Of a DNA stretch of 64,000 bases, positions 14,663 to 63,990 are shown one piece after another (position 1 is the stretch's first letter; each line of letters opens with the position of its first letter). The stretch lies in the NCBI RefSeq assembly GCF_018263905.1, contig NZ_JAAFZU010000055.1, forward strand, positions 137,673 to 201,672, read 5' to 3'. This DNA is from Loktanella sp. SALINAS62. GTDB lineage: Bacteria; Pseudomonadota; Alphaproteobacteria; Rhodobacterales; Rhodobacteraceae. Made by a program: the position numbers and the translations under genes. The notes below the pieces were generated by a model, which saw only the letters and a program-made list of their open reading frames with translations, did no database searches and was not told the DNA's origin.

Positions 14663-14734
14663 CAATCGCTCCTATTACATCACCTCTAGCAATCGCTCGG
14701 AAATGTGGCAGCAATGTGCAATGACCCGGACGCT

Positions 14735-16060: not shown

Positions 16061-16064
16061 GGTC

Positions 16065-44984: not shown

Positions 44985-45008
44985 CCCAGCCGGCACGACA
45001 ACGAAAAC

Positions 45009-45031
45009 AAAGCGCCTTCGGGCGCTTTTTT
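45009..45031 (+). terminator. Terminator after the YcbK-like gene
   Basis: AAAGCGCC / GGCGCTTT with a TTCG tetraloop followed by TTT; 24 bases after the stop codon. Confidence 0.92.
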
Positions 45032-45078
45032 CGTGCGGTCTTGCGGGGCGTCTGGACCCCGTGTACAGACAGGCCTGC

Positions 45079-45152
45079 GCGGGTATGGTGAAAAGGTATC
45101 ACGAAAGCTTCCCAAGCTTCAGTTACGGGTTCGATTCCCGTTACCCGCTCCA
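45079..45152 (+). tRNA. tRNA-Gly (anticodon CCC)
   Basis: A complete 74-nt cloverleaf: acceptor GCGGGTA / TACCCGC, discriminator T, encoded CCA at 45150-45152, T-arm ACGGG-TTCGATT-CCCGT, D-arm with GGTATC, and anticodon loop TTCCCAA with CCC at 45111-45113. The base of the anticodon stem has an A-C mismatch (45104/45120), otherwise the stems pair. It reads GGG glycine codons. Its 3' end is repeated at 63977-63990, which marks it as the likely integration site of an island. Confidence 0.95.
45139..45152 (+). repeat. Candidate attL: 3' end of tRNA-Gly
   Basis: CGTTACCCGCTCCA, the last 14 bases of the tRNA gene including CCA, occurs again in direct orientation at 63977-63990. A chance 14-base match of exactly this end in 64 kb is unlikely. 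Confidence 0.65.
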
Positions 45153-45311
45153 ATCTAATGTGTACGCTTCTGGAACTCAGGCTTTTTTGGAAGCTTAACC
45201 AGCCGCCCGAAACCAGGCTGGGTTTACGGGCTTTGGACTGACCTTGGTTTGGCTGGACCGGCCAACCGGTTTGCAAGAGCGACGTGGTCAGGATGTGGCG
45301 GGATTTACCAG
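45153..45311. other. Gap after tRNA-Gly with an imperfect hairpin
   Basis: No gene seen. AACCAGCC (45197-45204) pairs with GGCTGGGTT (45216-45224) with one bulge; on the minus strand this stem lies about 90 bases after the stop of the gene at 45312 and may help to end that operon. Evidence is weak. Confidence 0.3.
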
Positions 45312-47198
45312 TTACGCTCGCGGCATTCCCTTATGCCGCATCAGACGCTTTTGCGCGGCGATACGGAACGGTGCGTTGGGGCCGCCGTAGCCCGCATATC
45401 CCGCCTCGCGTTGGACGATTTCAAAGAACATGCCGCCCGCAAAGGGGCGCGAATACAGCTGATAGAACGCCCCGTTGGCGTCCTCGTCGTACAGGATGTT
45501 GCGCGCGCTTAGCCGGTCAATCACATCGGGCGCCAGATCGAACCGTGCGGCCAGATCGGCGTAGTAGTTCCCAGAGATCGGCAAGGTCGCGAATCCTGTT
45601 CCGTCAAGCGCATCGGCGGTGGCAAAGATATCGTCCGTCGCCAACGCCACATGCTGGACAGAAGCGTGAAAGCTGTCGGCCAGAAAATGACCCGCCATGG
45701 TGCGGTGCGTTTCTGCCCCGTTCAGCGTCACGCGCAATGTCCCGTCCGGCGTGGACAATGCCTGACTGCGCACCAGCCCGTCGGGGTCGATCACGTCGAC
45801 CATGGGCGATTTGGTCATCTGGAACAGCGTGGTGTAAAACAGCGACCAGCTGAGCATTTCATCATAGGTCGTCGTCTGGGCGATATGGTCGATCCGGGTC
45901 AGGCCAACCCCGGCTGCCGGGGTTTGAACCGGGGTAAATTCGATATCCCAGACGTCGGACAATCCGCTGGCGTCGTCGATGAAATGCAGAACGCTGCCGC
46001 TTTGGCCCCTGATCGCAGGGATGTCCAACTGATGCGCACCGACCGGCTGATCGAACGGGCGCGCGCCCAGCCGTTCGGCCCGTGCGACGGTCGCGGCCGC
46101 ATTGTCGACCGCGATCCCGATGTCGCAGATCAAGGTGCCGTGCGTCGTATAGGCGCTGCTGGCATAGCCTTCGGTTTCGCGGTTGATGACGATGCGAATG
46201 TCGTTTTGCACCCACAGCGACAGGCGCTTGCCGATGTGATCGGCCGCGTGCCGGAAACCGAGCGTGCCCAGCAGCGCCTCGAGCGCGTCAGCCTCGGCCC
46301 CCTTGCTGGCGAATTCGAGGAAGGCCACCCCGGCAACACGCGCGCGCGGGGGCATCGGCACCAGGTTTTGCTGCGGTGCGGGTTCGACCCGGCGCACGTC
46401 GTCCATCAGCGCGGCGAGCGCGCGATAGCCGTCCTTGGCGATTTCCGACGGTCGTCCGCCACGAAACTGGTCGTTGAAAATCTCCAGCGATACTGGCCCC
46501 GCATAGCCTGTCGCCACGACAGCGCGCATGAATGCGGTGACATCCAGATCGCCTTCTCCCGGCATGTTGCGGAAGTGACGCGACCAGTAAAGCAGGTCCA
46601 TTTCGATCGCGGGGGCGTCAGCGAGTTGCACAAAAAAGATCTTGTCGCCGGGAATCCGCCGGATCGTTTCGGGGTCGATACCGCGGGCCAATGTGTGAAA
46701 GCTGTCGAGGATCAGACCGATGTTGTCATGATCGGCCCTGCGCACGATTTCCCATGCGTCGCGGTGATCATTGACGTGCCGACCCCATGCGAGTGCTTCA
46801 TACCCAACCCGCAAACCCCGCTTGGCAGCACGATGGCCCAATTCATTGAAATCAGCCGCAGCCTTGTCGATGCCGCCGAGCGCCTGAGGATGGCAAGACG
46901 AACAGATCAGAACAAGGTCCGCTCCCAGTTCCTGCATCAGATCAAATTTACGCTCCACCCGGTCAAAAGCTTTGGCGCGCAAGGGATCGGGCAGACCTTC
47001 GAAATCACGGAACGGTTGAAAGAGCGTGATTTCCAGACCCATCGCACGGATCAGGTCCCCAACCTCGCGCGGGTCGCCGTCATGCGCAATGAAATCCTGT
47101 TCAAAAATCTCGATCCCGTCAAAACCTGCGGCGGCTATCGCCTCAAGCTTTTCGGTGAAATTGCCGGATATGGAAACGGTCGCGATGGATGTTTTCAT
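45312..47198 (-). CDS. quiC1: 3-dehydroshikimate dehydratase, QuiC1 type (sugar isomerase-HPPD fusion)
   Basis: A 628-residue two-domain protein. Residues about 1-280 are a xylose-isomerase-like TIM barrel with the metal ligands expected in dehydroshikimate dehydratases: Glu in GYEALAWGRHV, Asp in LILDSFHT, Gln in FFVQLADAP, Glu in SLEIFNDQF. Residues about 300-628 are a vicinal-oxygen-chelate domain related to 4-hydroxyphenylpyruvate dioxygenase (TRIDHIAQTT, SVQHVALATDDI, FEIVQREAGYAGYGGPNAPFR). This fusion is the QuiC1 type that turns 3-dehydroshikimate into protocatechuate. Start at 47198 follows GAGG. It is last in the operon with the TRAP transporter and QsuD-like gene. Confidence 0.88.
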   Translation of the reverse strand: MKTSIATVSISGNFTEKLEAIAAAGFDGIEIFEQDFIAHDGDPREVGDLIRAMGLEITLFQPFRDFEGLPDPLRAKAFDRVERKFDLMQELGADLVLICSSCHPQALGGIDKAAADFNELGHRAAKRGLRVGYEALAWGRHVNDHRDAWEIVRRADHDNIGLILDSFHTLARGIDPETIRRIPGDKIFFVQLADAPAIEMDLLYWSRHFRNMPGEGDLDVTAFMRAVVATGYAGPVSLEIFNDQFRGGRPSEIAKDGYRALAALMDDVRRVEPAPQQNLVPMPPRARVAGVAFLEFASKGAEADALEALLGTLGFRHAADHIGKRLSLWVQNDIRIVINRETEGYASSAYTTHGTLICDIGIAVDNAAATVARAERLGARPFDQPVGAHQLDIPAIRGQSGSVLHFIDDASGLSDVWDIEFTPVQTPAAGVGLTRIDHIAQTTTYDEMLSWSLFYTTLFQMTKSPMVDVIDPDGLVRSQALSTPDGTLRVTLNGAETHRTMAGHFLADSFHASVQHVALATDDIFATADALDGTGFATLPISGNYYADLAARFDLAPDVIDRLSARNILYDEDANGAFYQLYSRPFAGGMFFEIVQREAGYAGYGGPNAPFRIAAQKRLMRHKGMPRA

Positions 47199-47202
47199 GA
47201 CT

Positions 47203-48504
47203 CTAACCTCGGTAGCCAAGAAGGCGCGGTAGGAACAGCACGATGTCGGGCACAAACGTGATGATCATCAGCGCACCGATCAGGGCCAGCAGGAACGGCC
47301 AAATCTCTTGGATGACTTTGCCGATGGGCGCACCAGAGACGTTGGAGACAACGAACAACAGCAGCCCGTAGGGCGGCGTGATCAGCCCGATCATTGCGTT
47401 GACCACCACGACGACACCGAAATGCAGCATGTCGATATTCAGGGCGATGGCGGTCGGGATCAGGATCGGCACGATGATCAGCAGGATCGCGCCGCCTTCC
47501 AGCACGCAGCCAAGGAGCAGGATCAATACATTGACTGCAATCAAAAAGGTGACTGCGTTCAGCTCGTAGTCCAGCAATAGGGCCGCGATCTGGTTGGGCA
47601 CCTGTTCACGCACGATCACGTATTCAAAGGCAAGCGCGCCCGCGACCAAGATGCCGACCGCAGCGGTTGACCGTGCCGAAGACAGCAGCGCGCCATAGAA
47701 CTGCCGCAGGCTGACCGACCGGTAAAGCGCGATCGAGATGACCAGCGCGTAAAATGCGGCAACGGCTGCGGCTTCGGTCGGGGTAACAACCCCACCATAG
47801 ATCCCGCCCAGCAATATGACCGGCAGCAAAAGTGCGGGCATAGCCTTGAACGTAAGGCCCGGAAGCTCTCGCGCCGGGACGATATCATCGACCGGGAAAT
47901 CGCGGCGGCGGGCGATGATGTAATTCATGACAGCCATCATCATCGCCATCATCAGACCCGGCAGAATGCCAGCTGCAAAGAGAAATCCGATAGATTGGTC
48001 AGACACGAGCGCGTAAAGCACCATCGGGATCGAAGGCGGAATGATCGGGCCGACGGTCGCGGTGGCGGCGGTGATTGCTGCGGCATATTGCGGTGTGTAG
48101 CGGTTATCTTTCGTCATCATCCCGATGATGATCTTGCCCATGCCGACGGCGTCGGCCACGGCAGACCCGGACATGCCCGAAAAGATCACCGAAGAGACGA
48201 CGTTGACGTGGCCAAGCCCGCCCCGAAACCGCCCGACAAGTGCTTGGCAGAACCGCAATAGCCGGTCAGCAAGCGAACCGACGTTCATGATGTCTGCGGC
48301 CAGGATGAACAACGGAATCGCAAGCAGGGTATAGCCGTTATATAGACCCTGCAGCATCGTCTCGGGGGCCAGTCCCGGATCGCGCCCGGCCAGGACCAGA
48401 TAGGCCAGCGACCCCGTGATCATCGTTACGCCTACGGATTGTCCGGCGATGACCAGAAGAACGATCAGCAAAATAGACAGGGTCAGCGGATCAGTCATAG
48501 TCAT
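47203..48504 (-). CDS. TRAP transporter large permease, DctM type
   Basis: A 433-residue protein with about 12 hydrophobic spans and family signatures IPLFILAADIMNVG, VVSSVIFSGMSGSAVADAVGMGKI, ITAATATVGPIIPPSIPMVLYA, GGVVTPTEAAAVAAFYAL and MIGLITPPYGLLLFVVSNVSG. Start at 48504 (GGAG upstream) overlaps the dctQ-type gene by 14 bases; ATG 48498 is an alternative. It forms the sodium-driven membrane core with the small subunit. Likely substrate, from context, is quinate, shikimate or a related cyclitol acid. Confidence 0.94.
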   Translation of the reverse strand: MTMTDPLTLSILLIVLLVIAGQSVGVTMITGSLAYLVLAGRDPGLAPETMLQGLYNGYTLLAIPLFILAADIMNVGSLADRLLRFCQALVGRFRGGLGHVNVVSSVIFSGMSGSAVADAVGMGKIIIGMMTKDNRYTPQYAAAITAATATVGPIIPPSIPMVLYALVSDQSIGFLFAAGILPGLMMAMMMAVMNYIIARRRDFPVDDIVPARELPGLTFKAMPALLLPVILLGGIYGGVVTPTEAAAVAAFYALVISIALYRSVSLRQFYGALLSSARSTAAVGILVAGALAFEYVIVREQVPNQIAALLLDYELNAVTFLIAVNVLILLLGCVLEGGAILLIIVPILIPTAIALNIDMLHFGVVVVVNAMIGLITPPYGLLLFVVSNVSGAPIGKVIQEIWPFLLALIGALMIITFVPDIVLFLPRLLGYRG

Positions 48505-49012
48505 GGCTCTCCGGGTCCTGCGGCAGATGGACATGCGGCCCCCGGCCCATGACTGCGTCCCAGACCTGTACCAACGCGCGGATGATCACGGCCCCCGCGA
48601 ACAGCATGTAGATGGAAAAGACCCAATTGAACGGGATGCGCAGGGCCGCCGTCCGTTCGCGGGCCATGAAATCGATGTAGTCCCAGACCGCAGGCAGCGT
48701 GAAAACAAAGATCGCAGCGATTGTCAGACCGCCGAAAATGTCGAACCCGCGTCGCCAGCCACGTGGGACCGCGTAATACACCATATCAAGACGGATCACT
48801 TCGGTGCCTTTGACCACAAAGGCATAGCCAAAGAGGATTCCCCAGACCCAAACCAGCGTGACCCATTCGACGGTCCAATCGACCGAGATGTTGAGCACGT
48901 AGCGAAACAGGACCTGCAACAAGAACACGACGAACATGCTCAGCAGCATGGCCGCAAGGATATTCTCTGCCCGGGCGTGCAGCCATGACCCAAGTTTCTT
49001 TGCAGATTCCAT
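48491..49012 (-). CDS. TRAP transporter small permease, DctQ type
   Basis: A 173-residue four-span membrane protein with the family features LQVLFRYVLNISVDWTVEWVTLVWVWGILFGYAFVVKGTEVIRLDMVYYAVPRG. The ATG at 49012 is preferred to a TTG at 49021. It overlaps the large-subunit gene by 14 bases and is separated from the binding-protein gene by an 80-bp gap that holds a stable hairpin. Confidence 0.92.
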   Translation of the reverse strand: MESAKKLGSWLHARAENILAAMLLSMFVVFLLQVLFRYVLNISVDWTVEWVTLVWVWGILFGYAFVVKGTEVIRLDMVYYAVPRGWRRGFDIFGGLTIAAIFVFTLPAVWDYIDFMARERTAALRIPFNWVFSIYMLFAGAVIIRALVQVWDAVMGRGPHVHLPQDPESHDYD

Positions 49013-49045
49013 CTTGATCAATCTTTCTGTGGGATCGTCTTACCT

Positions 49046-49070
49046 GCGGGACCGGATGGACCGGTCCCGC
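49046..49070 (-). promoter_or_regulatory. Stable hairpin between TRAP binding-protein and permease genes
   Basis: GCGGGACCGG / CCGGTCCCGC, a perfect 10-bp stem with a 5-base loop, 23 bases after the dctP-type stop on the minus strand, without a T tract. Such stem-loops between dctP and dctQ, first noted in Rhodobacter capsulatus, keep binding-protein mRNA abundant relative to the permeases. Confidence 0.75.
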
Positions 49071-49092
49071 TGATATCGTCCGATTGGCTGAT

Positions 49093-50076
49093 TTACATAT
49101 TGCCGATCGCGTCGACCAAGCCTTCGGGCCAGTCGTTGGAATATTCGGATTCCTGATAGATCCCCAGCACGTGCTCTCGGAACGCTGCGTTGTCGGGCAT
49201 GTAGACGTCGACACCGTTGGCGGCGATGTCTGCGGCCAGCGTGGTTTCCTGTTCGATGGTGATGGCGTCAAGTTCTGCTTCGAACTGGTCGGCACAGCCC
49301 TGAACCGTGGTTTGCTGTTCGGGCGTCATCTCGTTCCACGTCTCAAGCGAGATGGTGAACAGATTGGATGCAATCAGGTGGCTGGTGGTCCCGATATGAG
49401 TCAGCACTTCGTCGAATTTCATCGACCGCGTGGCCGGAAAGCCGTTGTCCTGTCCGTCGATGGCACCGGTCTGAAGCGCGGTGTAGACTTCGGTGAACGG
49501 CACGGGCACAGGTGTGGCCCCCATCGCCTCGCCCACGAATTGCCAGCCTTCGCCCGGCGGCATCCGCAGTTGCACGCCCTGCAAATCGGCCGGTGTCATG
49601 ATCCGTTCTTCACCGACATATCCAATGTGCCTTGCGCCGATGTAGGGAAATGCCAGAACCTTGACCTCTGCCTTCTCTTCGATTTCGGCCAGCATGCCGT
49701 CGATCACGTCGCTGTTGTAGACCGCGCGCATGTGATCGTAGTCGCGGAACAGGAACGGCGTGCCCAGCACGCTTGTGGACGGCACCTGGTTCTGAAAGTC
49801 GAAGGGCGCAAGGTTGCCCATGTCCAGATTGCCGCGCTGCATCGCCGTCAGCTCGGTCCCTTGCTCGAACAATGTGGCACCGTGGAACGCCTGAAAATCG
49901 AACCCCTCGCCCAGGCAATCGCCAAAGGCTGATTGCAGGGTTTCCGACCGGATATCGGTCGGCGACACGGTGTCCGAATAGATGATCTCGATGGTGTCTT
50001 GTGCCAGTGCGGCGGTCGCCGTCAGTGCCAGGGCAGCCGCGCTGGCCATGAGGGTCTTTGTGGTTGTGGAACGCAT
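49093..50076 (-). CDS. TRAP transporter solute-binding protein, DctP type
   Basis: A 327-residue periplasmic binding protein with signal peptide ending ATAALAQ and GGGAGG before the ATG. DctP-family marks include GTELTAMQRGNLDMGNLAPF, LGTPFLFRDYDHMRAV, the RMPPGEGWQFVGEAMGATPVPVPFTEVYTALQTGAIDGQDN segment with the conserved carboxylate-binding Arg (LQLRMPP position), and MKFDEVLTHIG. The Arg implies an organic acid ligand. In the context of the operon a quinate- or shikimate-like acid is the best guess. Confidence 0.93.
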   Translation of the reverse strand: MRSTTTKTLMASAAALALTATAALAQDTIEIIYSDTVSPTDIRSETLQSAFGDCLGEGFDFQAFHGATLFEQGTELTAMQRGNLDMGNLAPFDFQNQVPSTSVLGTPFLFRDYDHMRAVYNSDVIDGMLAEIEEKAEVKVLAFPYIGARHIGYVGEERIMTPADLQGVQLRMPPGEGWQFVGEAMGATPVPVPFTEVYTALQTGAIDGQDNGFPATRSMKFDEVLTHIGTTSHLIASNLFTISLETWNEMTPEQQTTVQGCADQFEAELDAITIEQETTLAADIAANGVDVYMPDNAAFREHVLGIYQESEYSNDWPEGLVDAIGNM

Positions 50077-50126
50077 TGGTTTTCCTCCCTTTCGCGTTTC
50101 GTTTTGCCGCTCTGTGGAACGACGTG

Positions 50127-51017
50127 TTACCGGGCCTCAAAGGTGCCGAACGTCGCCTTCAGGCGATCGGCGTCGGCATTGAGACCGGTAAAGAGGTGAA
50201 AGGCACGGACGGCCTGAAAAACAGCCATGCCGGACCCGTCAAGCGTGCGGCAGCCCTTGGCCCGGGCGATACGCAGAAATTCGGTTTCAAGTGGAAAGTA
50301 GACGATTTCGGCCACCCACTGACTGGATGTCAGATAGGCCGGATCAAGCGGCACACCCGGCAGCTTGGCCATGCCCATCGGTGTGGCATTGACGATCCCG
50401 CCGGCCCGGCTGGCGCAGGCCGCGATATCGTCTGCGGCACGGGCAATCGTGGCGCCCGACGCGCGGTTGACACGGTCGACAAGCGCCTGCGCCGCGTCGG
50501 GCCGGTTGTCCGCGATCATCAGGTCGGTCACGCCAAGATCTTGCAGGGCAAACGCAACCGCCGCCCCCGCGCCCCCGGCACCGATCAACAGCACCCGGCT
50601 TAATGTCACATTGGGCAGTCCACGGCGCATGCTTTCTGCGAAACCCCAGAAATCTGTATTGTGCCCAAACCGCTTGCCGTCGCGGAAAACCAGAGTGTTG
50701 ACCGCACCGACCTTGCGTGCAGCGTCGGACAGATCGTCTGTTAGATCGAACACGGCCTGCTTGAAAGGATATGTGACGTTCAGTCCGGCAAATCCGTCTG
50801 CCTCGGCTTTCGCAATGATCTTGGCAGGGTCGCTTTCGACCCCGGGCTGGTCCGGGTCGATCAGATCGTAGCGATAATCCAGCCCATGTGCCCGCCCTTC
50901 CGCCGTATGCATGGCGGGCGTGCGGGATTGCTGGATACCACGTCCGATCAGTCCAACACGGACGGCACGTTGGGTTGCCCCGGTGCGCCCGGACTGAACC
51001 TTTGTCTCATTGCCCAT
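50127..51017 (-). CDS. Quinate/shikimate dehydrogenase, QsuD-like (AroE superfamily)
   Basis: A 296-residue enzyme with SRTPAMHTAEG (the second Ser of biosynthetic AroE is Thr, as in corynebacterial quinate/shikimate dehydrogenase), catalytic Lys in NVTYPFKQA, Asp in GHNTDFWGF, the dinucleotide site LIGAGGAGAAVAFAL followed by an Asp at the end of the next strand (IADNRP), and VNATPMGM. The match to the QSDH group and the operon context argue for oxidation of quinate or shikimate, not biosynthesis. GGAGGAG precedes the ATG. Start lies 133 bp from the divergent TetR gene. Confidence 0.87.
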   Translation of the reverse strand: MGNETKVQSGRTGATQRAVRVGLIGRGIQQSRTPAMHTAEGRAHGLDYRYDLIDPDQPGVESDPAKIIAKAEADGFAGLNVTYPFKQAVFDLTDDLSDAARKVGAVNTLVFRDGKRFGHNTDFWGFAESMRRGLPNVTLSRVLLIGAGGAGAAVAFALQDLGVTDLMIADNRPDAAQALVDRVNRASGATIARAADDIAACASRAGGIVNATPMGMAKLPGVPLDPAYLTSSQWVAEIVYFPLETEFLRIARAKGCRTLDGSGMAVFQAVRAFHLFTGLNADADRLKATFGTFEAR

Positions 51018-51031
51018 GTCGTCTCCTCCCA

Positions 51032-51049
51032 CAGTGGTCCTGACCACTG
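51032..51049. promoter_or_regulatory. 18-bp palindromic operator, probable TetR site
   Basis: CAGTGGTCCTGACCACTG: two perfect 8-bp arms around CT, 15 bases upstream of the QsuD-like start and in the intergenic region shared with the divergent TetR gene. A second, weaker inverted repeat TTTAAC/GTTAAA (51076-51081, 51107-51112) and the short palindrome CTTGGTCAAG (51081-51090) lie nearer the centre of the gap. The perfect palindrome is the best operator candidate. Confidence 0.7.
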
Positions 51050-51149
51050 CCTCCATCCGCACATTGTACCGTGCGTTTAACTTGGTCAAGAATTTTGTAC
51101 TGGCCGGTTAAATTGACGGATGTTAGGGTTCGCGCAGGAGGAAAGAGGC

Positions 51150-51827
51150 ATGACCGAACGGACCGCAGACAAAGGTGCGACGACAGCACAGGGCTGGAAA
51201 CAGGACCCGGAAGGCGTCCGGCGCGATATCCTGTCGGTGGCGGTATCCGAGTTTGCAGCGCGTGGCCTGTCCGGCGCCCGCATTGATGACATCGCGGCAC
51301 GCACACGCACGTCGAAACGGATGATCTACTACTATTTCGGCGATAAGGACGGGCTTTACGCCCGCGCGCTCGAAGCAGCCTACGCCAAAGTGCGTCACGG
51401 TGAAGAAAACCTTGATCTTGCCGGATTTGAACCCGACGACGCACTGGCCCGCCTGATCGGATTCACATTTGACCACCACCGCGCGAATCCTGATTTCATC
51501 CGCATGGTCATGATCGAAAACATCCACAACGCCGATTGCATCGCGCATTCCGACGTGATCCGGACCCTCAACGTCGCGGCAATCGACACGCTAAGCGACA
51601 TCTGCAAGCGTGGTGTTGCGACGGGCGTTTTTCGCGCAGGCGTGAATCCCATGCAGCTTCACTGGCAGATTTCGGCTCTTTCATTTTTCAACGTCTCGAA
51701 CCGGCCTTCGTTTTCGGCCTTGTTCGGGGCAGACCTGTTCACCGACGCCCAACAAAACGCCCTGCGCGACGACATCATCCGCATGGTGGTTGAATCCGTC
51801 CGCATGACCAAGGAGACTTTGCCATGA
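51150..51827 (+). CDS. TetR/AcrR-family transcriptional regulator
   Basis: A 225-residue regulator with the N-terminal helix-turn-helix (GLSGARIDDIAARTRTSKRMIYYYFGDKDGLYARALEAAY) and a helical ligand-binding domain resembling TetR_C_6-like members (DHHRANPDFIRMVMIENIHNA). AGGAGG before the ATG at 51150 sets the start. It is divergent from the quinate/shikimate operon and coupled by ATGA to a hydrolase gene, so it likely represses both sides until a pathway compound binds. Confidence 0.92.
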   Translation: MTERTADKGATTAQGWKQDPEGVRRDILSVAVSEFAARGLSGARIDDIAARTRTSKRMIYYYFGDKDGLYARALEAAYAKVRHGEENLDLAGFEPDDALARLIGFTFDHHRANPDFIRMVMIENIHNADCIAHSDVIRTLNVAAIDTLSDICKRGVATGVFRAGVNPMQLHWQISALSFFNVSNRPSFSALFGADLFTDAQQNALRDDIIRMVVESVRMTKETLP

Positions 51828-52768
51828 TGAACCCCGAATTGCAGGATTTCCTGAACGTCTGGAACGAAAAGTGGAGCGACCTGCCCAAAGGTTCTGGCCC
51901 TGCAGAACGCCGCGCGCATTTCGAGCAGATCGCACGCGACATGCGATTGCCGACGCCAGACGATGTGAATTGCGACGCGGAACATCACGTCGACAGCCCG
52001 GCCGGGCCCGCGCGGGTGCGGGTGTTTCGGTATGATGGCGACGACACGGCGCAGCCTTGCCTGATTTACATGCATGGCGGTGCGTGGATGCAGGGCAGCC
52101 CCGAAACCCACTGGGACATCACGGCGCGCATCGCATCATGGAACAGGCAGACCGTCATCAGCGTGGATTACGCGCTGGCCCCGGAACATCCGTTTCCGCA
52201 GGCCTACGACCAGTGCCTCGCCGTGACGCGGTGGGTCAGGACGCAGGCGCACGATCTTGGCGTCGATCCTGCGCGCATTTCCATCGGTGGCGACAGCGCC
52301 GGTGCCAATCTGGCCGCTGCCGTCACGCTGGCATTGAAAGGGACCGCTGACATGCCGATGGCGCAGCTTTTGGTCTATCCGGCCTGCGATTTCGACACAT
52401 CGCGCCCGTCGATGATCGAAAACGCCAATGGCCCTTTGCTGTTTCCACGCGACATGCCGGCTGTGAACGCGATGTACTGCCCCAACCCGTCCGATCTGGT
52501 AGATCCGCGCGCGGCACCGCTACACGCCACGGATCACACCGGCCTGCCGCAGGCGTTTGTCGCCGTGGCCGAATGCGACCCCCTGCGCGACAGTGGCCGT
52601 GCCTATGCCGCAGCACTGAAATCGGCGGGCGTGCCCATGACGCTGGACGACGGCAAGGGTCTGATCCACGGTTACCTGCGGGCAATGGATTACTGCAGCG
52701 ACAGCATGCGCAAACTGGAATCCATGGCCGCCTGGCTGCGGCAGGCCAACGCCAGCGCAGCCGCATGA
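51824..52768 (+). CDS. Alpha/beta hydrolase of the HSL (family IV esterase) type
   Basis: A 314-residue cytoplasmic esterase. The oxyanion-hole motif HGG is at residues 84-86, the nucleophile Ser158 in GGDSAGAN, and Asp252 (ECDPLRD) and His282 (GLIHGYL) complete the triad. AAGGAG precedes the start, which overlaps the TetR stop. Being next to quinate/shikimate genes, it could free these acids from esters such as hydroxycinnamoyl-quinates; that is an inference from context only. Confidence 0.9.
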   Translation: MMNPELQDFLNVWNEKWSDLPKGSGPAERRAHFEQIARDMRLPTPDDVNCDAEHHVDSPAGPARVRVFRYDGDDTAQPCLIYMHGGAWMQGSPETHWDITARIASWNRQTVISVDYALAPEHPFPQAYDQCLAVTRWVRTQAHDLGVDPARISIGGDSAGANLAAAVTLALKGTADMPMAQLLVYPACDFDTSRPSMIENANGPLLFPRDMPAVNAMYCPNPSDLVDPRAAPLHATDHTGLPQAFVAVAECDPLRDSGRAYAAALKSAGVPMTLDDGKGLIHGYLRAMDYCSDSMRKLESMAAWLRQANASAAA

Positions 52769-53232
52769 TGCAGCCCCCCCGGCCCGCGCTGACCTACGCC
52801 TTTACGATTCAGGCCGACATCGCGCCGCCGCGATCAGCGGGCCCTGCACCGCACGGCGAACGGCTACACATCGCGATCATCGGCGGGCAAGTTCGCGGCC
52901 CCCGCCTGACGGGCACGATCCGTCCCGGCGGTTCGGACTGGCCGGTGATTGGTCCGGACGGCAATTCGCGCATCGACGCCCGCTACACGATCGAGGCCGA
53001 TGACGGCACGCTGATCTACGTCGTCAACCGCGGCCTGCGCGTGTCGTCTGCACAAACGCTGCAACGGTTGCGCGCGGGCGAGCCTGTGGACCCGGCGGAG
53101 GTCTATATGCGCGCGGCCCCGGTCTTTGACGCACCCGACGGACCCCACGCCTGGCTGCGCGAGCGGCTCTTCGTCTGCTCGCTGTCACCGAGACCAGAAG
53201 CGATTGCGATTGACGTCTATCTTGTCGAATGA
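52765..53232 (+). CDS. DUF3237 family protein
   Basis: A 155-residue protein with the family pattern ALTYAFTIQADIAPP, GPAPHGERLHIAIIGGQVRGPRLTGTIRPGGSDWPVI, DARYTIEADDGTLIYVVNRGLR and a C-terminal LRERLFVCSLSPRPEAIAIDVYLVE. DUF3237 (UPF0311) proteins form a small beta-barrel and often sit in aromatic-compound clusters; no reaction is established to my knowledge. It starts within the hydrolase stop (ATGA; ATG 52768 is an alternative) and is the last gene of the TetR operon. Confidence 0.87.
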   Translation: MMQPPRPALTYAFTIQADIAPPRSAGPAPHGERLHIAIIGGQVRGPRLTGTIRPGGSDWPVIGPDGNSRIDARYTIEADDGTLIYVVNRGLRVSSAQTLQRLRAGEPVDPAEVYMRAAPVFDAPDGPHAWLRERLFVCSLSPRPEAIAIDVYLVE

Positions 53233-53743
53233 CGGTTCAGCATAGATTCCGCACCGTCCGGGAGCGATTAAGGGCAATGATGCAGGACGTTGCTGCCATT
53301 GGTCGAAGTCGGCTTCCAAAGCAGGCGGACAAGATCCGTCCTTTTCGCCGGTGACACAGACGAGGAGTTTTGGCCGTTTCCTTCGGCGTAGCGGGCCTTC
53401 GCTGCCACACTGACAAGCGGTGGCCGAAGACGCGGTGACCGGCCCGATGGTACGCGCCATCCTTCCCGCGATCCAACGCTTGCGACCGCCGCCGTCATGC
53501 GCGTGATCGCGACCCAGAACCAACCGGAACGAAAGCAGCAGGACAGGTCTGTCCGTCGCGCTGAAAACCGGAGACGCCAGGCCAGGATGATGCGGATTCG
53601 CAGCTTGATCCGCACAGTTCCAGCTGCCTCCGCAGCGATGCGCGCATCAATGGCCGCGAAATGATTGACTTACGCGCCTGATCGGGCGACCTTGATCACC
53701 AACGGCATGCCATTTGGGAAATGTCGAATGAAATGAGTTTCAC
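53233..53743. other. 511-bp gap without a supportable gene
   Basis: No frame here has a family match, signal peptide or ribosome site that I can support. Open frames on the minus strand (for example 53185-53523) are rich in Arg, Cys and Trp as expected from out-of-frame GC-rich DNA. The stretch looks like decayed or non-coding island DNA; no terminal inverted repeats or transposase remnant could be made out. Confidence 0.5.
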
Positions 53744-55163: not shown

Positions 55164-55268
55164 CGTTCTTCTATAAAACAGAATGATAACGAACAATATA
55201 TGTAATTTTATGAACCTCGGCCACCGACTACACCATCCGCGACAGCCAACAACACGGATGCCGCCGCG

Positions 55269-56828: not shown

Positions 56829-59189
56829 ATGTTTATGAACACCACACCCGTCGCACCCGACATGGTAAGTGCCATTTTGGACGCTGCCAAAACGGCGGCA
56901 CGCACAATCCCACCGGCTTTTCCACTGGATGCCACGGTGGCCGTTAATCCGTTTCTTGGTCAATCGGGCGAAGATCTGGTTCATGCCGCCGCCCGCTTGG
57001 GTCGCGTCGCGGGTGTCAGCCTGACGCCACCACGCGCGAGCTACCGCGCAAAAATTGCAGCGGGCGAAATCACGGACGACGATCTGGCGGCCGCGCTGAT
57101 CGCATCGACACTACCCATGAAGCCCCGTGACCTGGCGCTGCTGAAAGCAAAGATCCATGTCGATGCGCCACAAGCTGCGGCACTGCCGACCGTCGCGGAT
57201 CTGGCGGCCACGTCAACCGGCACCGACTGGTCCGCCATTCTGCACCGGTGTTTCGGACTTTGGGCCGCGGGCCATTTCGACCGCGGTCAGGCCCTGTGGA
57301 CACCAAGGCCCGACAACACGGCCTATGCCGCATGGCGTGAATGGGCGACCCACGACCTGACGCCCGAGATTGCGGGGCTGTCCGGGTTCTGCGCCCATAT
57401 CGCGCAGGCGCCCGATACCGCCGAACGCGCGATTCTGCGCGCGGCAGAGCGGCTGGGTTTGGCCAAAGACGCCGGGCCCACCGCCTTTCACCGGCTTCTC
57501 ATCGATCTGGGCGGCTGGTCACAACATGCGCGGTGGCTTTTGTGGCAGGCGGAACTGGCAGGCGGCACGGATAGCACCCTGACCGATCTGCTGGCGATCC
57601 GCCTGATCTGGGAAGAAGCATTGCTGGCGCAGTACCCACAGGTCACGGATCACTGGCAGGCGACAGTCGCTGCACATGCGGCTCCTGTCGCGCCGACGCC
57701 TGACCAGGTGCTCGACGCGATCTTGCAGGACGCGGCTGAACGCGGCCACCAACGGCATCTTGGCGCGGTCCTGTCGGGTCCAGCAGAACGCGCCGGGCGC
57801 CCCGACCTTCAGGCGGCGTTTTGCATCGATGTCCGGTCCGAAGTCATGCGGCGGGAGCTTGAGGCGCAGAACGACGGGATCGAAACGCTGGGCTTTGCCG
57901 GTTTCTTCGGGCTACCCGTGGCGCATCGCCAACACGGCACCGACGCGGTGCAATCCCATCTGCCTGCCTTGTTGAACCCGGCGCTGGTTTCGACCAGCCA
58001 CACCGATGCAGCCAGCGAAACCACGGCCCGCATCAGCGCGCGTGCCACCCGCGCTTGGGGCCGGTTCCGGCAGGCGGCGGTATCCTCTTTTGCCTTCGTA
58101 GAAGCAGCGGGACCCGCCTATGGTTTGAAGCTGATGAAAGACGCTCTTGGCAGTGGAACGACCGGGCTTGCACCGGGCCCGATGCCCCGCCTTGAAACGG
58201 ACCTATCGCCCGAGGCCAAGGCACAGACAGCGGCATCGATCTTGCGCGCCATGAGCCTGACGCAGAACACCGCACGGCTGGTTTTACTGGTCGGACACGG
58301 CGCACAAGTGACCAACAATCCACATGAAAGCGGGTATCACTGCGGGGCCTGTGGTGGCCAGACGGGCGAAGTGTCGGCCCGTCTGCTGGCCGCACTGCTA
58401 AACGATCCCGAAACGCGTGCAGGTTTGCCGCAGCACGGCATCCATCTGGCCGACGACACGCATTTCGTCGCCGCCCTGCACGACACCGTGACGGACAAGG
58501 TGACGCTTTACCCCGATACGCCAGCACCGGATCACACGACAGATTTGGCCCAAGTGCAGGGTTGGCTTTGCGCGGCAAGCGGTTTGGCACGGGCGGAACG
58601 CGCGCAGCGGCTGCCCGGTGCGACTGGCAACAGCCTGCTCGGCCGCGCGGCCGACTGGGCCGAGATGCGTCCGGAATGGGGCCTCGCAGGTTGTGCCGCC
58701 TTCATCGCTGCCCCGCGCAGCGCAACGGCAGGCCGTGACCTGAAAGGCCGTGCATTTCTGCACAATTACGACTGGCGCGCCGATAACGGATTCGCCACGC
58801 TGGAATTGATCTTGACGGCGCCGGTCGTGGTCGCAAGCTGGATCAGCCTGCAATACTATGGATCGACCGTTGCACCGCAGGTGTTCGGCGGCGGTAACAA
58901 ACTGATCCACAACGTCGTCGGTGGTATCGGCGTGGTGCAGGGAAACGGCGGTCAACTGCGTCCCGGTTTGCCGTGGCAAGCGGTGCACGATGGCGAAACC
59001 CCGGCGCACGATCCGCTGCGTCTGTCCGTGATGATCGACGCCCCGACCGAGGCGATCACCGAAGTATTGCGCAAACACGATCAGGTGCGGCAACTCTTTG
59101 ACAACGGTTGGCTACATCTCTTCGCGCTCGACAGCGGCAAGATCAGGGCGCGTTACAGATCAAGTTTGACGTGGGGTGACCGCATCTGA
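56829..59189 (+). CDS. dabA: DabA, carbonic-anhydrase-like subunit of the inorganic carbon transporter (DUF2309)
   Basis: A 786-residue cytoplasmic-face protein of the UPF0753/DUF2309 family. The zinc site described for Halothiobacillus DabA (Cys, Asp, His, Cys) is present: Cys332 and Asp334 in FCIDVRSE, His490 in VGHGAQVTNNP and Cys505 in YHCGACGG, with the same spacings of 2 and 15 residues. GGAG lies seven bases before the start, which follows the dabB stop directly; ATG 56835 is an alternative. Together with DabB it hydrates CO2 vectorially and traps bicarbonate in the cell. Confidence 0.95.
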   Translation: MFMNTTPVAPDMVSAILDAAKTAARTIPPAFPLDATVAVNPFLGQSGEDLVHAAARLGRVAGVSLTPPRASYRAKIAAGEITDDDLAAALIASTLPMKPRDLALLKAKIHVDAPQAAALPTVADLAATSTGTDWSAILHRCFGLWAAGHFDRGQALWTPRPDNTAYAAWREWATHDLTPEIAGLSGFCAHIAQAPDTAERAILRAAERLGLAKDAGPTAFHRLLIDLGGWSQHARWLLWQAELAGGTDSTLTDLLAIRLIWEEALLAQYPQVTDHWQATVAAHAAPVAPTPDQVLDAILQDAAERGHQRHLGAVLSGPAERAGRPDLQAAFCIDVRSEVMRRELEAQNDGIETLGFAGFFGLPVAHRQHGTDAVQSHLPALLNPALVSTSHTDAASETTARISARATRAWGRFRQAAVSSFAFVEAAGPAYGLKLMKDALGSGTTGLAPGPMPRLETDLSPEAKAQTAASILRAMSLTQNTARLVLLVGHGAQVTNNPHESGYHCGACGGQTGEVSARLLAALLNDPETRAGLPQHGIHLADDTHFVAALHDTVTDKVTLYPDTPAPDHTTDLAQVQGWLCAASGLARAERAQRLPGATGNSLLGRAADWAEMRPEWGLAGCAAFIAAPRSATAGRDLKGRAFLHNYDWRADNGFATLELILTAPVVVASWISLQYYGSTVAPQVFGGGNKLIHNVVGGIGVVQGNGGQLRPGLPWQAVHDGETPAHDPLRLSVMIDAPTEAITEVLRKHDQVRQLFDNGWLHLFALDSGKIRARYRSSLTWGDRI

Positions 59190-59293
59190 CGCTGCCCGAA
59201 ACGTTTAAGCTGGCGCATGCTATTCCACGCGCGGCTGGCCAGACCACGTTTTTTGGTCCCGGTATATGCGACAAGCTTTTGCGGCTTTGAGCA

Positions 59294-60079
59294 TCAGTCA
59301 GGCAGCGTGATGAGAAAAGGAATATCCTCGCCACTGACATCGATGACCTTGCAGCGAATGCCGAATACATCCGCCACGCGGGTTTCAGTCAGAACCTCGC
59401 GAACCGGACCGGATGTCACAACGCGGCCAGCATCGAAAAGCACGACGTGGTCGGCGTAGCGCATCGCCATGTTCAGATCGTGCAGCACCAGAACGATGCT
59501 GCGTCCTTCGGTCCGGTTAAGGCGGCGGACCAGTTCCAGCACTTCGAACGCATGCGCCACGTCCAGATGGTTGGTCGGTTCGTCCAGAAAGATCCGTGGC
59601 GCCTCTTGTGCGATCGTCATCGCGATCCAGGCCCGCTGCATTTGCCCGCCGGACAAATGCCCGATCGGCCGCTCTGCGAGCCCCGTCATTTCGGTGGCGG
59701 CCAGAGCATTGGCGCAGGCGGCATGATCCTCGCCGGAGTGCCCCGCAAACCGCTTTCGGTGTGTAAACCGGCCCAGTCGCACAAGATCCTGAACAGTCAG
59801 TTCGGGCGGAGCTTCCGGCGACTGGCTCAGCATCGCGACCGCTTTCGCAAGATCCTTTGGCACCCAATCACGCAGCGGACGGCCCGCCACGTCGACGGTG
59901 CCCCCCTCAACCTTGTGCAATCCCCGCAGCACCCGCAACGCAGTGGACTTGCCGCTGCCATTTGGCCCGCAAAAAGCGATGACCTGCCCTTCTGGCAGAT
60001 CAAGATTGATCAGATCGAGTGCGGTGATCCCATCATAGCACGCGGTCACACCATGAAGCCGGGCGAGTGCATCAGCCAT
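59294..60079 (-). CDS. Iron-siderophore ABC transporter ATPase, FecE/FepC type
   Basis: A 261-residue ATPase with Walker A GPNGSGKST, signature LSGGQMQRAW and Walker B RIFLDEPTNHLD, plus the FecE-type PEAPPELTVQDLVRLGRFTHRK segment. It overlaps the upstream permease gene by eight bases. It energises uptake through the FecCD-type permeases encoded at 60072-62071. Confidence 0.94.
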   Translation of the reverse strand: MADALARLHGVTACYDGITALDLINLDLPEGQVIAFCGPNGSGKSTALRVLRGLHKVEGGTVDVAGRPLRDWVPKDLAKAVAMLSQSPEAPPELTVQDLVRLGRFTHRKRFAGHSGEDHAACANALAATEMTGLAERPIGHLSGGQMQRAWIAMTIAQEAPRIFLDEPTNHLDVAHAFEVLELVRRLNRTEGRSIVLVLHDLNMAMRYADHVVLFDAGRVVTSGPVREVLTETRVADVFGIRCKVIDVSGEDIPFLITLPD

Positions 60080-61091
60080 AAACGCGGCGTCCTTTCAAAA
60101 GCAGCCGGATAAAAAGCGGCGCACCGATCAACGCGGTCAGCGCGCCTGCAGGCAATTCAAGCGGGGCCGCGATGACGCGGGCCAGCGTGTCAGCGCCAAG
60201 AACCAGCGCACCGCCGATCAGGGCCGTCGCAATGAGATAGCCACCCGTGAACTGCCCGTGCAGCAGCCGCGCGGCATGCGGCGCGATCAACCCTACAAAG
60301 CCCACCGCGCCGACCTGCGAAACAGCAAGAGCGGTCAAGCCGACGGCCAAAGCAAGAAGAGCGACCTGCGCCCGCCCCACGCGAACGCCCGTCGCTGCGG
60401 CACTTTCAGGATCAAGAACAAGTTGCCGGATGGTGCCGCGCATCAAGACGAAAGCGACCGAGGCCACAACAAGCCCTGCGGCAACGGTGAACACGTCGGT
60501 CCAGTGTGCGGCACCGACGGAACCGGTCAGCCATGTCAGCGCCTGCCCCGCGCGATACACCGGCCCGAGGATCATCATCAGCGTGACCGCTGCCTTGGCC
60601 AGCGCCGCAAGCGCAATACCGTACAGGATTATCCGCAACGGGGTTCGTCCGCCGGGGTCAAGCAGGGCAAAAAGCGTCACCAACCCCGCAAAGACGAACG
60701 CCCCGATTGCGGCCGCCAGCGGTTGCCAATGGATCGAGACCGTCAAGGCATTGGCATCGTCCGAGAATAACCAAAGAAACCCAACGACGCCCACAGCCGC
60801 GCCGTCAGTGACACCCAGCACAGAGGGGGCGGCAATCGGATTACGCGTGACCCGCTGGAGCAATGCGCCCGCCAGCGCCAGCGCCATGCCAGCAAGAACA
60901 GCAAGTGCGACGCGCGGCAAACGCAGGGTCCAGATGATGACTTCGTCCATCCGCTCGCCTTGCCCAAGCAAAGCGGCCGCGACGCGATCAAGCGGCATAT
61001 AGCTCGACCCGATCCCCGTCGCGACGACCGTAAGTGCAATCAGGCAGGCGGCAGGTGCCAAAAGACGGTAAAGCGGCGCGCGCGCGATCAC
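60072..61091 (-). CDS. Iron-siderophore ABC transporter permease, FecCD family (second)
   Basis: A 339-residue permease with about ten spans and the FecCD features LRLPRVALAVLAGMALALAGALLQRVTRNPIAAPSVLGVTDGAAVGV and GAVGFVGLIAPHAARLLHGQF. Slightly more like FecD/FepG by position. It overlaps both neighbours (8 and 4 bases). It would pair with the permease encoded at 61088-62071 as a heterodimer. Confidence 0.94.
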   Translation of the reverse strand: MIARAPLYRLLAPAACLIALTVVATGIGSSYMPLDRVAAALLGQGERMDEVIIWTLRLPRVALAVLAGMALALAGALLQRVTRNPIAAPSVLGVTDGAAVGVVGFLWLFSDDANALTVSIHWQPLAAAIGAFVFAGLVTLFALLDPGGRTPLRIILYGIALAALAKAAVTLMMILGPVYRAGQALTWLTGSVGAAHWTDVFTVAAGLVVASVAFVLMRGTIRQLVLDPESAAATGVRVGRAQVALLALAVGLTALAVSQVGAVGFVGLIAPHAARLLHGQFTGGYLIATALIGGALVLGADTLARVIAAPLELPAGALTALIGAPLFIRLLLKGRRVYG

Positions 61092-62071
61092 TGAACCGTC
61101 TCCCGCCGCTGCCGGAGAAGGCCAATCAGAACGGGCACACCCACAAGAGCCAGAACCGAACCGATTGGTGCCTCGCCGGGCGCCACGATCAGCCGCGCCG
61201 CAATATCCGCCAGAACGGCGAGGGTTGCACCAACCAACGCGGTCACCGCGATCAGCTGCGCGCTGCCGCTAGACGGGCAAAGCCGCCGGGACAGATGCGG
61301 GGCTACGAGACCCAGAAAAACGACAGGCCCCGCCACGGCCACAGCGCCGGACGCCAGCAGGGCCGCCAGTGAAAGCGCGCCCAGCCGCACACCCGCGACC
61401 CTGACCCCCAGCGCCCCCGCGCTGTCGTCGTCCAGCCTGAGCGCGTCAAGTGACGGAGCAAGCGCCAGAGCGCCAAGCCCGCCCACGACAAGCGTCGGCA
61501 GACCAAGTGTCAGGAGTGCAAGTCCCCGGTCGGCAAAGCCACCGGAAAGCCAGAAAAGCATGGTTTCAAGCGCCGTTTCATCGACGAGCAGCATCACTTG
61601 CGTCAATGACGACAGCATCGCAGCCATCGTCACCCCGGCCAGAAGTGTCGTCGCTGGTCCTGCCGTCCGCCCTGCCGCGCTGACGATCGCAAAAACAAGC
61701 AAGGTTCCGGTCAATCCGCCAGCCAGTGCAAGCGCACCGATCCCCCCCAGCCCCAGCGTTCCAAACAGGGAGAACCCCAGCACGACGGCGAAAGCCGCCC
61801 CAGCATTGATTCCCAACAGGCCGGGTTCGGCCAACGGATTTCGGGTCGCCGCTTGCATCAGAAAACCGGACACACCGAATGCGGCACCAGCGCAAATCCC
61901 GATCAGCGTGCGCGGAATGCGCAGCGTGGCAATGATGATCGCATCTGTGCTTTCACCGCCCTGCAAGGCTTCAAGCACTACCGCAGGAGAGTAGGTCCGC
62001 AGACCGATATGCAAACTCGCACCGATCGCGAACGCCAAGACAAAGACGAGTGTAAATAAGAGCTTGGTCAC
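61088..62071 (-). CDS. Iron-siderophore ABC transporter permease, FecCD family (first)
   Basis: A 327-residue permease with the conserved LRIPRTLIGICAGAAFGVSGFLMQAATRNPLAEPGLLGINAGAAFAVV and VVFLGLVAPHLSRRL. It is the first gene of the leftward iron-uptake operon and is divergent from the binding-protein gene; the 102-bp gap holds a candidate iron-rhodo-box. Confidence 0.94.
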   Translation of the reverse strand: MTKLLFTLVFVLAFAIGASLHIGLRTYSPAVVLEALQGGESTDAIIIATLRIPRTLIGICAGAAFGVSGFLMQAATRNPLAEPGLLGINAGAAFAVVLGFSLFGTLGLGGIGALALAGGLTGTLLVFAIVSAAGRTAGPATTLLAGVTMAAMLSSLTQVMLLVDETALETMLFWLSGGFADRGLALLTLGLPTLVVGGLGALALAPSLDALRLDDDSAGALGVRVAGVRLGALSLAALLASGAVAVAGPVVFLGLVAPHLSRRLCPSSGSAQLIAVTALVGATLAVLADIAARLIVAPGEAPIGSVLALVGVPVLIGLLRQRRETVQ

Positions 62072-62107
62072 AGGATGCCCGCAGTTTTACGGGGCCAATT
62101 GACATTC

Positions 62108-62124
62108 TTGATTGATTTAGTCAA
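62108..62124. promoter_or_regulatory. Candidate iron-rhodo-box (RirA site)
   Basis: TTGA, nine bases (TTGATTTAG), TCAA, which fits the TGA-N9-TCA iron-rhodo-box reported for RirA-type control in Rhodobacterales and Rhizobiales. It lies between the divergent siderophore permease and binding-protein genes, next to a TTGACA (62099-62104) that may be a -35 element. Confidence 0.6.
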
Positions 62125-62173
62125 CAAATAACTCATAACCATACCAAATCACTCGGAAATAAGGATTCCGTCA

Positions 62174-63082
62174 ATGTCACTGTTCAAAACCGTCTTCGCG
62201 GCTCTGCCTGTCGCGGTCGCACTGTTCGCCAGTCCACTTCAGGCCCGCGACATCAGCCACGCCATGGGAACGACCGATGTTCCGGAAAATCCGCAGCGCG
62301 TGGTCGTCCTGACCAACGAAGGAACCGAGGCACTGCTCGCGCTTGGTATGGTCCCTGTGGGTGCGGCAAATTCCTGGAATGGTGACCCGTGGTGGGATCA
62401 TATCGCGGACCAGATGGGTGACGCTGTGCCAGTAGGCACCGAAAGCGCGGTAAATCTGGAATTGATCGCAGCTCTGGAACCCGATCTGATCATCGGAAAT
62501 GCGCAGCGCCAAGAAGAAATCTATCCGCAACTGTCGGCCATCGCGCCTACGGTCCTGTCGGAGGAACTACGCGGTGACTGGAAGATCAATTTCCGCCTCT
62601 ACGCCGAAGCTCTTGGCCTTCAGGACGAGGCGGAGATCGCAATCGCTGCCTATGATGAAAATGTTGACGAAGTTCGCACATCGCTTGGCGATGCGCTCGC
62701 GGAAGAGGTATCTGTCATCCGCTTTCTTCCCGGACAAATTCGTATCTACCAACGCGACAGTTTCTCTGGCGTTCTTTTGCAAGACCTTGGATTTCAGCGC
62801 CCTGACAATCAGAATGTCGAAGCTTTCGCCATTTCGACTGGCAAGGAAAGCATCCCGAATATGGACGGCGACCGGATATTCCATTTCACGTGGGACACTG
62901 GTGACGGCGAGGGCGATGCACTGGCCGAGGACGTCCTGACCGACCCGCTTTGGCAATCGCTGTCGGCGGTTCAGGCAGGCCGGGTCCATGCCGTCAGCGA
63001 TGCCATCTGGAACACCGCAGGCGGCATTCTCGCCGCCGAATTGATGCTTGAAGACATCGCGCAGATCTATGGCGTCGACTGA
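62174..63082 (+). CDS. Iron-siderophore substrate-binding protein (FepB/FecB type)
   Basis: A 302-residue periplasmic protein: signal peptide ending SPLQA, then HAMGTTDVPENPQRVVVLTNEGTEALLALGMVPVGAANSW, LELIAALEPDLIIGN and a C-terminal half with LTDPLWQSLSAVQAGRVHAVSDAIWNTAGG, all typical of the peripla_BP_2 family. It lacks a lipobox Cys, so it is soluble. It is coupled to the siderophore-interacting protein gene by a 14-base overlap and faces the permease operon. Confidence 0.93.
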   Translation: MSLFKTVFAALPVAVALFASPLQARDISHAMGTTDVPENPQRVVVLTNEGTEALLALGMVPVGAANSWNGDPWWDHIADQMGDAVPVGTESAVNLELIAALEPDLIIGNAQRQEEIYPQLSAIAPTVLSEELRGDWKINFRLYAEALGLQDEAEIAIAAYDENVDEVRTSLGDALAEEVSVIRFLPGQIRIYQRDSFSGVLLQDLGFQRPDNQNVEAFAISTGKESIPNMDGDRIFHFTWDTGDGEGDALAEDVLTDPLWQSLSAVQAGRVHAVSDAIWNTAGGILAAELMLEDIAQIYGVD

Positions 63083-63860
63083 GACCATTCATGATGTCAG
63101 TGTCGAGCGGATCTATCCGCTCGGCGCGACAATGCGGCGCGTGACGTTCATACCGCTGGTGGGTCCACAGCCGTTTCATCGCCGGGTTCACGGCGGACAT
63201 TGTCAGCTGTTTTTCCCAGACCCAGCGGGCGTGCGTTTACGTAGACCGCGCACATTTACCTACCGGCGCTGGCACGCGGACGGTCGGTTCGATGTGGACT
63301 TTGTTCTTCACGACGGAAACGGCCCCGCAGCCGTCTGGCTGCGTCAGGCTCGCCACGGCGATAACCTGCAATGGCGTCATGGCGGCCCACCCAAGGTCTC
63401 GCTTGCCGGGCCATGCGATGACGCAGCCGTTCTCATCGGTGACATGACGGCGCTACCGTTAATCTCGACACTGATCGAAAACGCACATATCGGTCGCGAT
63501 ATCAGGGCGCTGATGCTGCTCAACGACAGTCATACGCAACTACCGCCAGTCGAACCGGGAAGACCGGTGAAAATTTCGCGGTACAAGACTGTCAGTCAGG
63601 TCGAAGCCGAGCTTCGGACCATGACGTTCGGTCAGTCGGGCCTGCTTTTCGTCGCTTGCGAAGCCAACAAGATGCGGCGGCTGCGGCGGTTCGCCCTCGA
63701 TGATCTGGAACTCTCTGGAAAACAGGTGATCACTTCGGGCTATTGGAAAGCCGGACTGACCGCCGAAGAGATCGACGCAGCAAAGAGGGGTCCGGACTGG
63801 TTCGCAGACACAAACCTGTCGGGTGTTGGACATGAGCAGCCAAGACACAGCATGGCGTGA
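63069..63860 (+). CDS. Siderophore-interacting protein (FAD-dependent ferric reductase)
   Basis: A 263-residue member of the SIP family, which releases iron from ferric siderophores in the cytoplasm by reduction. The FAD-binding motif RPRTFTYRRW, the following FDVDFVLHDGNGPAAVWLRQARHGDNLQW, GDMTALPLISTLIE and the C-terminal SGYWKAGLTAEE with conserved Tyr-Trp are the family marks. The ATG at 63069 lies inside the end of the binding-protein gene; a TTG at 63048 is less likely. It completes the uptake route for an imported siderophore. Confidence 0.92.
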   Translation: MASTETIHDVSVERIYPLGATMRRVTFIPLVGPQPFHRRVHGGHCQLFFPDPAGVRLRRPRTFTYRRWHADGRFDVDFVLHDGNGPAAVWLRQARHGDNLQWRHGGPPKVSLAGPCDDAAVLIGDMTALPLISTLIENAHIGRDIRALMLLNDSHTQLPPVEPGRPVKISRYKTVSQVEAELRTMTFGQSGLLFVACEANKMRRLRRFALDDLELSGKQVITSGYWKAGLTAEEIDAAKRGPDWFADTNLSGVGHEQPRHSMA

Positions 63861-63976
63861 TCGAAAATACCGCTGCGGATTTAACCCAACGTGCCGTCAC
63901 AACGTCTATCGTAAATACCCAATTTACTTGACGAAACCTTACGAATTGATACGGGAAACGACATCACAGCGGGGTT

Positions 63977-63990
63977 CGTTACCCGCTCCA
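63977..63990 (+). repeat. Candidate attR: duplicated 3' end of tRNA-Gly
   Basis: CGTTACCCGCTCCA repeats the last 14 bases of the tRNA gene at 45139-45152 in the same orientation. The longer piece GGGTTCGTTACCCGCTCCA (63972-63990) equals the tRNA T-arm and acceptor end with seven bases (ATTCCCG) missing. No other part of a tRNA precedes it. Confidence 0.65.

Follow-up and report, generated by a model that had tools for sequence, protein, structure and literature searches.

Among the genomic islands of marine bacteria, mobile genes were reported in 70% of the islands and at least 27% of them were flanked by or contained transfer RNAs (tRNAs) (PMC3478194); going by the part of that source considered here, islands without mobile genes are therefore common. 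In the same part, the marine islands resemble the one described here in carrying accessory cargo at a tRNA, whereas retained attachment (att) arms, which are followed here, are not followed there. The present island lies at the gene for tRNA-Gly(CCC) in Loktanella sp. SALINAS62 (G000), in a stretch of 64,000 nucleotides, referred to below as the window, which is part of contig C78, 603,130 bases long, in a draft genome of 101 contigs. We consider it probable, at roughly 80%, that a mobile element entered this tRNA gene and later lost its integrase, and that what is seen today is a composite cargo island. No account of it was met in a limited literature search, and no single part of it is new.

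The systems closest to it are elements with a tyrosine integrase of the Arm-DNA-bind_3 kind, which we take to be of the P4 type. On contig C60 of genome G421, an intact integrase of 448 amino acids (Arm-DNA-bind_3, PF13356; Phage_int_M, PF22022; Phage_integrase, PF00589) starts 146 bp from the core and is followed by a replication protein of the Prim-Pol/D5 type. On contig C4 of genome G082, an intact integrase of 439 amino acids with the same three domains begins 212 bp away from the core, and about 14 kb from that core there is a tRNA-Gly(CCC) sharing the 3' end. The window island is like both in having a core made of a tRNA-Gly 3' end, next to which these elements carry their integrase reading inward, and unlike them in having no integrase and a metabolic cargo instead. 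The second system is the presumed island of the congener G005, which shares with the window island the tRNA, the core, a homologous right arm, the presence of siderophore ATP-binding cassette (ABC) and tripartite ATP-independent periplasmic (TRAP) transporter genes and the fact that no intact integrase was seen. It differs in that these genes are not the same units (27-56% identity in translated pieces) and that the N-terminus of an integrase is still there.

Limits of the island at tRNA-Gly(CCC)

The features which define the two ends of the island are the following.

45079 to 45152, plus strand: tRNA-Gly(CCC), whose last 14 bases are the attL core (ARAGORN; alignment with relatives)
45139 to 45152, plus strand: att core, left copy (repeat search; alignment with relatives)
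63884 to 63976, plus strand: attP-type arm, apparently retained, homologous to the arm beside the G005 integrase fragment (alignment score against shuffles)
63977 to 63990, plus strand: att core, right copy, probably the displaced original tRNA 3' end (repeat search; alignment with relatives)

The tRNA is intact according to ARAGORN and is the only one in the window. A preliminary description of this DNA had reported that its 3' 14 bases (45139-45152) recur at 63977-63990, and the repeat is indeed exact and in the same orientation. The longer 19-base match proposed there, with a deletion of 7 bases, did not hold up as well: GTTCG stands directly before TTACCCGCTCCA at the right ends of G000, G005 and G421, though not of G082, and since three of the four right ends that were compared have it before the core, it is better read as att-arm sequence. 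The number of repeats is in itself weak evidence. A 13-mer inside the core has two matches in the window at up to two mismatches, both exact, and shuffled windows give 1.06 matches on average, with two or more in 29 of 100 shuffles. Internal copies of the core as marks of a stepwise accretion were likewise looked for at up to two mismatches, and just the two known matches came out. The proof of the island is thus the empty sites in relatives and not the repeat count.

These were examined in the eight other genomes of the genus (G001 to G008). In six of them (G002, G003, G004, G006, G007 and G008) the tRNA is contiguous with the sequence to the right of the second repeat, as the preliminary description had expected of an empty site, and relative to these the window genome has 18,838 bp more. 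In five of these six comparisons, the additional stretch is delimited by the 14-bp repeats. In G004, window positions 44416-45152 align to 1-736 of the locus and 63977-80357 to 723-17134, so that the two alignments overlap by 14 bases on the tRNA 3' end; the overlap is also 14 bases in G002 and G008, 16 in G003 and 18 in G006, while in G007 31 bases separate the two alignments, the one of the right flank starting again at 64010. Furthermore, the 17 bases that follow the right core of the window are those that follow the tRNA in G004. The tRNA-associated island is hence real and precisely bounded, and it is of an ordinary kind.

The direct repeats would allow precise excision, and the same distribution could in principle have come about if the ancestor had carried the island and the empty relatives had lost it by recombination between the repeats. 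This would need six of eight congeners to have lost the island with the same precise join; moreover the G005 site holds other cargo and the composition of the island may be atypical. We consider such a loss very improbable, and a gain by the window genome much the better account.

The two remaining congeners have an occupied site, with other genes in G005 and a 2.2-kb insert in G001 (L047:17027-19266, contig C26). The far end of the G001 insert copies 61 bases of the 3' part of the tRNA and is identical to the window's tRNA over these 61 bases, whereas in the whole tRNA of G001 five of these positions, located in the anticodon arm, differ from the copy, the last 31 being identical. The G001 element therefore brought a slightly different end. 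Its insert holds a gene of 426 amino acids with one weak match in the PADLOC defence-gene library (DzbB, E 0.0039) and none in Pfam or NCBIfam, and no Phage_integrase or Arm-DNA-bind_3 match was found in the insert. A survey of DUF882 neighbours (80 loci of 570 relatives) yielded no further islands, tRNA-Gly(CCC) being right behind the DUF882 gene in just two loci, both of congeners (L075 and L076).

The att arm at the right end and the missing integrase

As the preliminary description had stated for the island at this tRNA with its att repeats, no integrase lies inside it: a PF00589 search detected no recombinase between 45153 and 63976, and contig C78 has no PF13356 match. Phage_integrase matches a single place on the 603-kb contig, window positions 35266-35802, which lie 9.3 kb to the left of the tRNA. 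This match was not retained as the island's integrase, for the top-scoring match of six of the eight relatives shares a contig with the tRNA and is 9.5-12.7 kb away from it (in G007 and G008 it is on another contig), and judging by this conserved position it is taken as chromosomal. Of the 39 kb taken from the right of the window, the first 18-20 kb are covered by relatives and are syntenic core in them. With neither another Phage_integrase nor an Arm-DNA-bind_3 match on the whole contig, the suggestion that a nested element lies past the window was abandoned as far as this comparison reaches.

The stop codon of the last siderophore gene is at 63860 and the sequence shared with G005 starts at 63884. 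When the 93 bp of 63884-63976 were aligned, without the core, to the right end of the G005 island, the score was 72. None of 500 dinucleotide-preserving shuffles scored as well (mean 22.7, maximum 35), nor did any of 300 in a second run. In G005, other genes occupy the 14.2 kb between the same tRNA and the contig end (C15:1-14218, L043), and the displaced core is found on contig C20 (C20:1-674, L182). There the N-terminus of an Arm-DNA-bind_3 integrase, reading inward, starts about 147 bp from the core (120 bp from the first possible start). By this homology, an att arm of the Arm-DNA-bind_3 element type is present at the right end of the window island. When the loci holding relatives of this integrase were scanned for the arm at full length and on both strands, a score of 40 was reached in G082 (L201) alone besides G005.

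Among the possibilities raised beforehand, loss of the integrase is thus the one best supported, through the attP-like arm shared with a site where an integrase fragment remains. An Arm-DNA-bind_3 tyrosine integrase would have inserted a mobile element into the 3' end of tRNA-Gly(CCC); the element would have supplied a tRNA 3' end of its own, leaving the tRNA whole and displacing the original 14-bp end to 63977-63990. As in G005 and G421, an inward-reading integrase gene would have stood at the right end, about 150 bp away from the core; its later deletion would have left the 93-bp arm beside the siderophore gene. The simplest reading of the junction is a deletion that runs up to about 50 bp before the start codon of the integrase gene and spares the arm. 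After such a deletion the island would be unable to move by itself.

The element could instead never have had an integrase: it would then be cis-mobilisable, its att ends being recognised in trans by the integrase of a co-resident element. The window genome does have four Arm-DNA-bind_3 genes elsewhere, and the G001 insert at the same tRNA likewise combines a second tRNA 3' copy with the lack of a recognised integrase. However, no CCCGCTCCA end is found in the 3.0-4.5 kb read around each of the four genes, one of which adjoins tRNA-Ser(GCT), so that mobilisation in trans, which the preliminary description had also put forward, is left unsupported. The G005 fragment, for its part, aligns to two of the four, with 31% identity on C34 and 41% identity over 79 residues on C35, the other two giving no alignment at E 1e-5, and has no match in the window genome at E 1e-20; the sole known homologue of the arm adjoins an integrase gene. 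We regard mobilisation in trans as improbable and an integrase of the island's own, since lost, as the better explanation.

The occurrence of the core and of the integrase was followed further in the family. The window's own genome and G421 are the two among 394 of the family that have the 17-base core GTTCGTTACCCGCTCCA (G005 is outside this sample); at up to three mismatches there are four, with G213 and G271 added; the matches in these last two were not taken as att sites. Relatives of the G005 integrase fragment occur in 16 of 121 genomes, G005 itself counted; the six minus-strand hits among these relatives showed a CGCTCCA end in 0 of 6 cases, with a best arm score of 23. A phage source was considered and set aside. 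Two viral contigs hold the 17-base core, with arm scores of 10-19, which is the chance level; in one the core is reached by a reading frame, in the other 38 bases separate it from the end of the stretch, and both stretches are without a tRNA. A plasmid source was dismissed as well, as 10 of 72,556 records match parts of the island and none covers 80% of it.

Cargo modules and their occurrence elsewhere

The cargo falls into three modules, A (45312-53232), B (54294-59189) and C (59294-63860), with these features.

45312 to 47198, minus strand: QuiC-like 3-dehydroshikimate dehydratase, AP_endonuc_2 and HPPD-like (Pfam; closest in NCBIfam is NF042435, at 650.8 bits against a cut-off of 1200)
47203 to 48534, minus strand: TRAP large permease DctM (Pfam)
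48491 to 49021, minus strand: TRAP small permease DctQ (Pfam)
49093 to 50076, minus strand: TRAP solute-binding protein DctP (Pfam)
50127 to 51089, minus strand: shikimate dehydrogenase family (Pfam; NCBIfam NF009201, above cut-off)
51120 to 51827, plus strand: TetR-family regulator (Pfam)
51824 to 52768, plus strand: alpha/beta hydrolase, Abhydrolase_3 (Pfam)
52762 to 53232, plus strand: DUF3237 protein, end of module A (Pfam)
53421 to 53561, no strand assigned: remnant between modules A and B, from the 3' end of a DDE_Tnp_1_4 transposase element (identity to G014:C55)
54294 to 55196, minus strand: LysR-family regulator, module B (Pfam; conserved beside dabAB in L055, L058-L060 and L184)
55269 to 56828, plus strand: DabB-like proton-conducting membrane subunit, Proton_antipo_M (Pfam; the name DabB follows from its place beside DabA)
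56829 to 59189, plus strand: DabA (PF10070, E 1e-248), probable inorganic carbon transporter subunit
59294 to 60079, minus strand: ABC transporter ATPase, module C (Pfam)
60072 to 61091, minus strand: FecCD permease (Pfam)
61088 to 62071, minus strand: FecCD permease (Pfam)
62174 to 63082, plus strand: binding protein of the iron-siderophore type, Peripla_BP_2 (Pfam)
63048 to 63860, plus strand: siderophore-interacting protein (SIP), last gene of the island (Pfam)

From these assignments, the cargo would serve dehydroshikimate catabolism with TRAP uptake, the import of inorganic carbon by DabAB and siderophore-iron uptake. The SIP is not visibly truncated, residues 2-254 of its 270 aligning with a homologue in L186. 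A small open frame at 53744-53986, with a start that looks by eye like a signal peptide and an acidic repeat, has no Pfam match.

The island was searched against 149 genomes of the family, its own included, with few candidates scored per genome. Among the matches listed, the longest outside its own genome covers 7,865 of 18,701 bases. Module A is nearly whole in G175, where module B lies on another contig; homology to A spans 45319-53183 in L054 and 45319-53190 in L245, the latter within the genus (G005:C7) and on a contig apart from the tRNA site. Module B is also present in G065, G108, G135 and others, and within the genus in G007. Module C is found in G078 and a large part of it in G149, whereas in the eight congeners nothing of it was detected beyond pieces of at most 215 bp. 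Since the modules occur as separate units in other genomes, the cargo is composite, and it would have been assembled from modules that other members of the family carry apart.

Two possible traces of transposition are seen near module A. The stretch 53421-53561 is 94% identical over 141 bp to G014:C55, where it overlaps the end of a DDE_Tnp_1_4 frame, and 15 of 18 C-terminal transposase residues match, so that this remnant may mark one of the events that joined the modules. Weaker matches to the stretch exist on C53 of the window genome itself (70%) and in G006 (79%). In G005:C7, frames for AAA_22 and Mu-transpos_C are found about 1.4 kb from module A (L245:12705-14443), with TniB just under the cut-off; a Tni-type transposon may be another vehicle of the dehydroshikimate module.

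The G+C content of the island (0.609) lies between those of its left (0.603) and right (0.624) sides. Tetranucleotide correlation with the core is 0.27-0.43 where a 5-kb window lies entirely within the island (five windows) and 0.46-0.73 where it lies entirely outside, with a reference that includes the outside windows. Composition and the separate occurrence of the modules would agree with gain.

Homologous recombination acting through the core genes on either side, by transformation or a gene transfer agent, could also have produced such a gain, the island then having arrived whole and already free of an integrase. The G005 site has other cargo at the same locus, which an exchange of flanks could swap. 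No donor of this arrangement is found, however, among the matches listed for the 149 family and 9 genus genomes. Gene transfer agents package about 4 kb, which is too short for 18.8 kb, and an earlier integrase event in the donor would still be required. Hence, we hold this route to be quite improbable, and integration followed by loss of the integrase remains our preferred reading.

Weight and meaning of the reading

Several points weigh against a former integrase in this island. The window retains no integrase codon, so that we infer its deletion, and the homologous arm was found in a single genome, G005. There the integrase fragment is itself cut short near the start of its contig, and a single island would have C15 and C20 as its ends. 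Judged by its motif, the sequence where the fragment is cut may be the start of an IS3-type transposase. The genes at the G005 site comprise siderophore-ABC and TRAP transporters of other lineages and an rve-type transposase gene. As for the intact elements, the window arm compares with that of G421 at chance level (261 of 300 shuffles as good) and with that of G082 marginally (17 of 300). G421 furthermore has no tRNA with exactly the window's 3' end, its tRNA-Gly(CCC) differing by one base and being on another contig. Because their arms are not clearly like the window's, G421 and G082 support the layout and not the descent of this very element. Among the relatives of the G005 fragment whose upstream sequence was read, none besides G082 has a tRNA-Gly end, which means that a tRNA-Gly target is not typical of this group of integrases. 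Finally, the lowest outside tetranucleotide windows (0.464 and 0.496) are near the island's highest (0.434), and the contrast is weak by itself because the reference contains the outside windows and so favours them.

Taken with the arm, the island's lack of an integrase would be explained by comparison with the island of a sister species. The tRNA-Gly(CCC) site offers a small natural series within one genus, from empty through a small insert and a cut-short integrase to an absent one. It is conceivable, although doubtful, that this site acts as a turnstile for metabolic cargo, at which integrases are regularly lost or broken after arrival, while the immobilised uptake modules are kept and sister species end up with different loads; the retained arms might then let a related integrase move such islands in trans. 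For the bacterium itself, a cargo directed at siderophore iron, inorganic carbon and dehydroshikimate-type compounds would fit niche adaptation.

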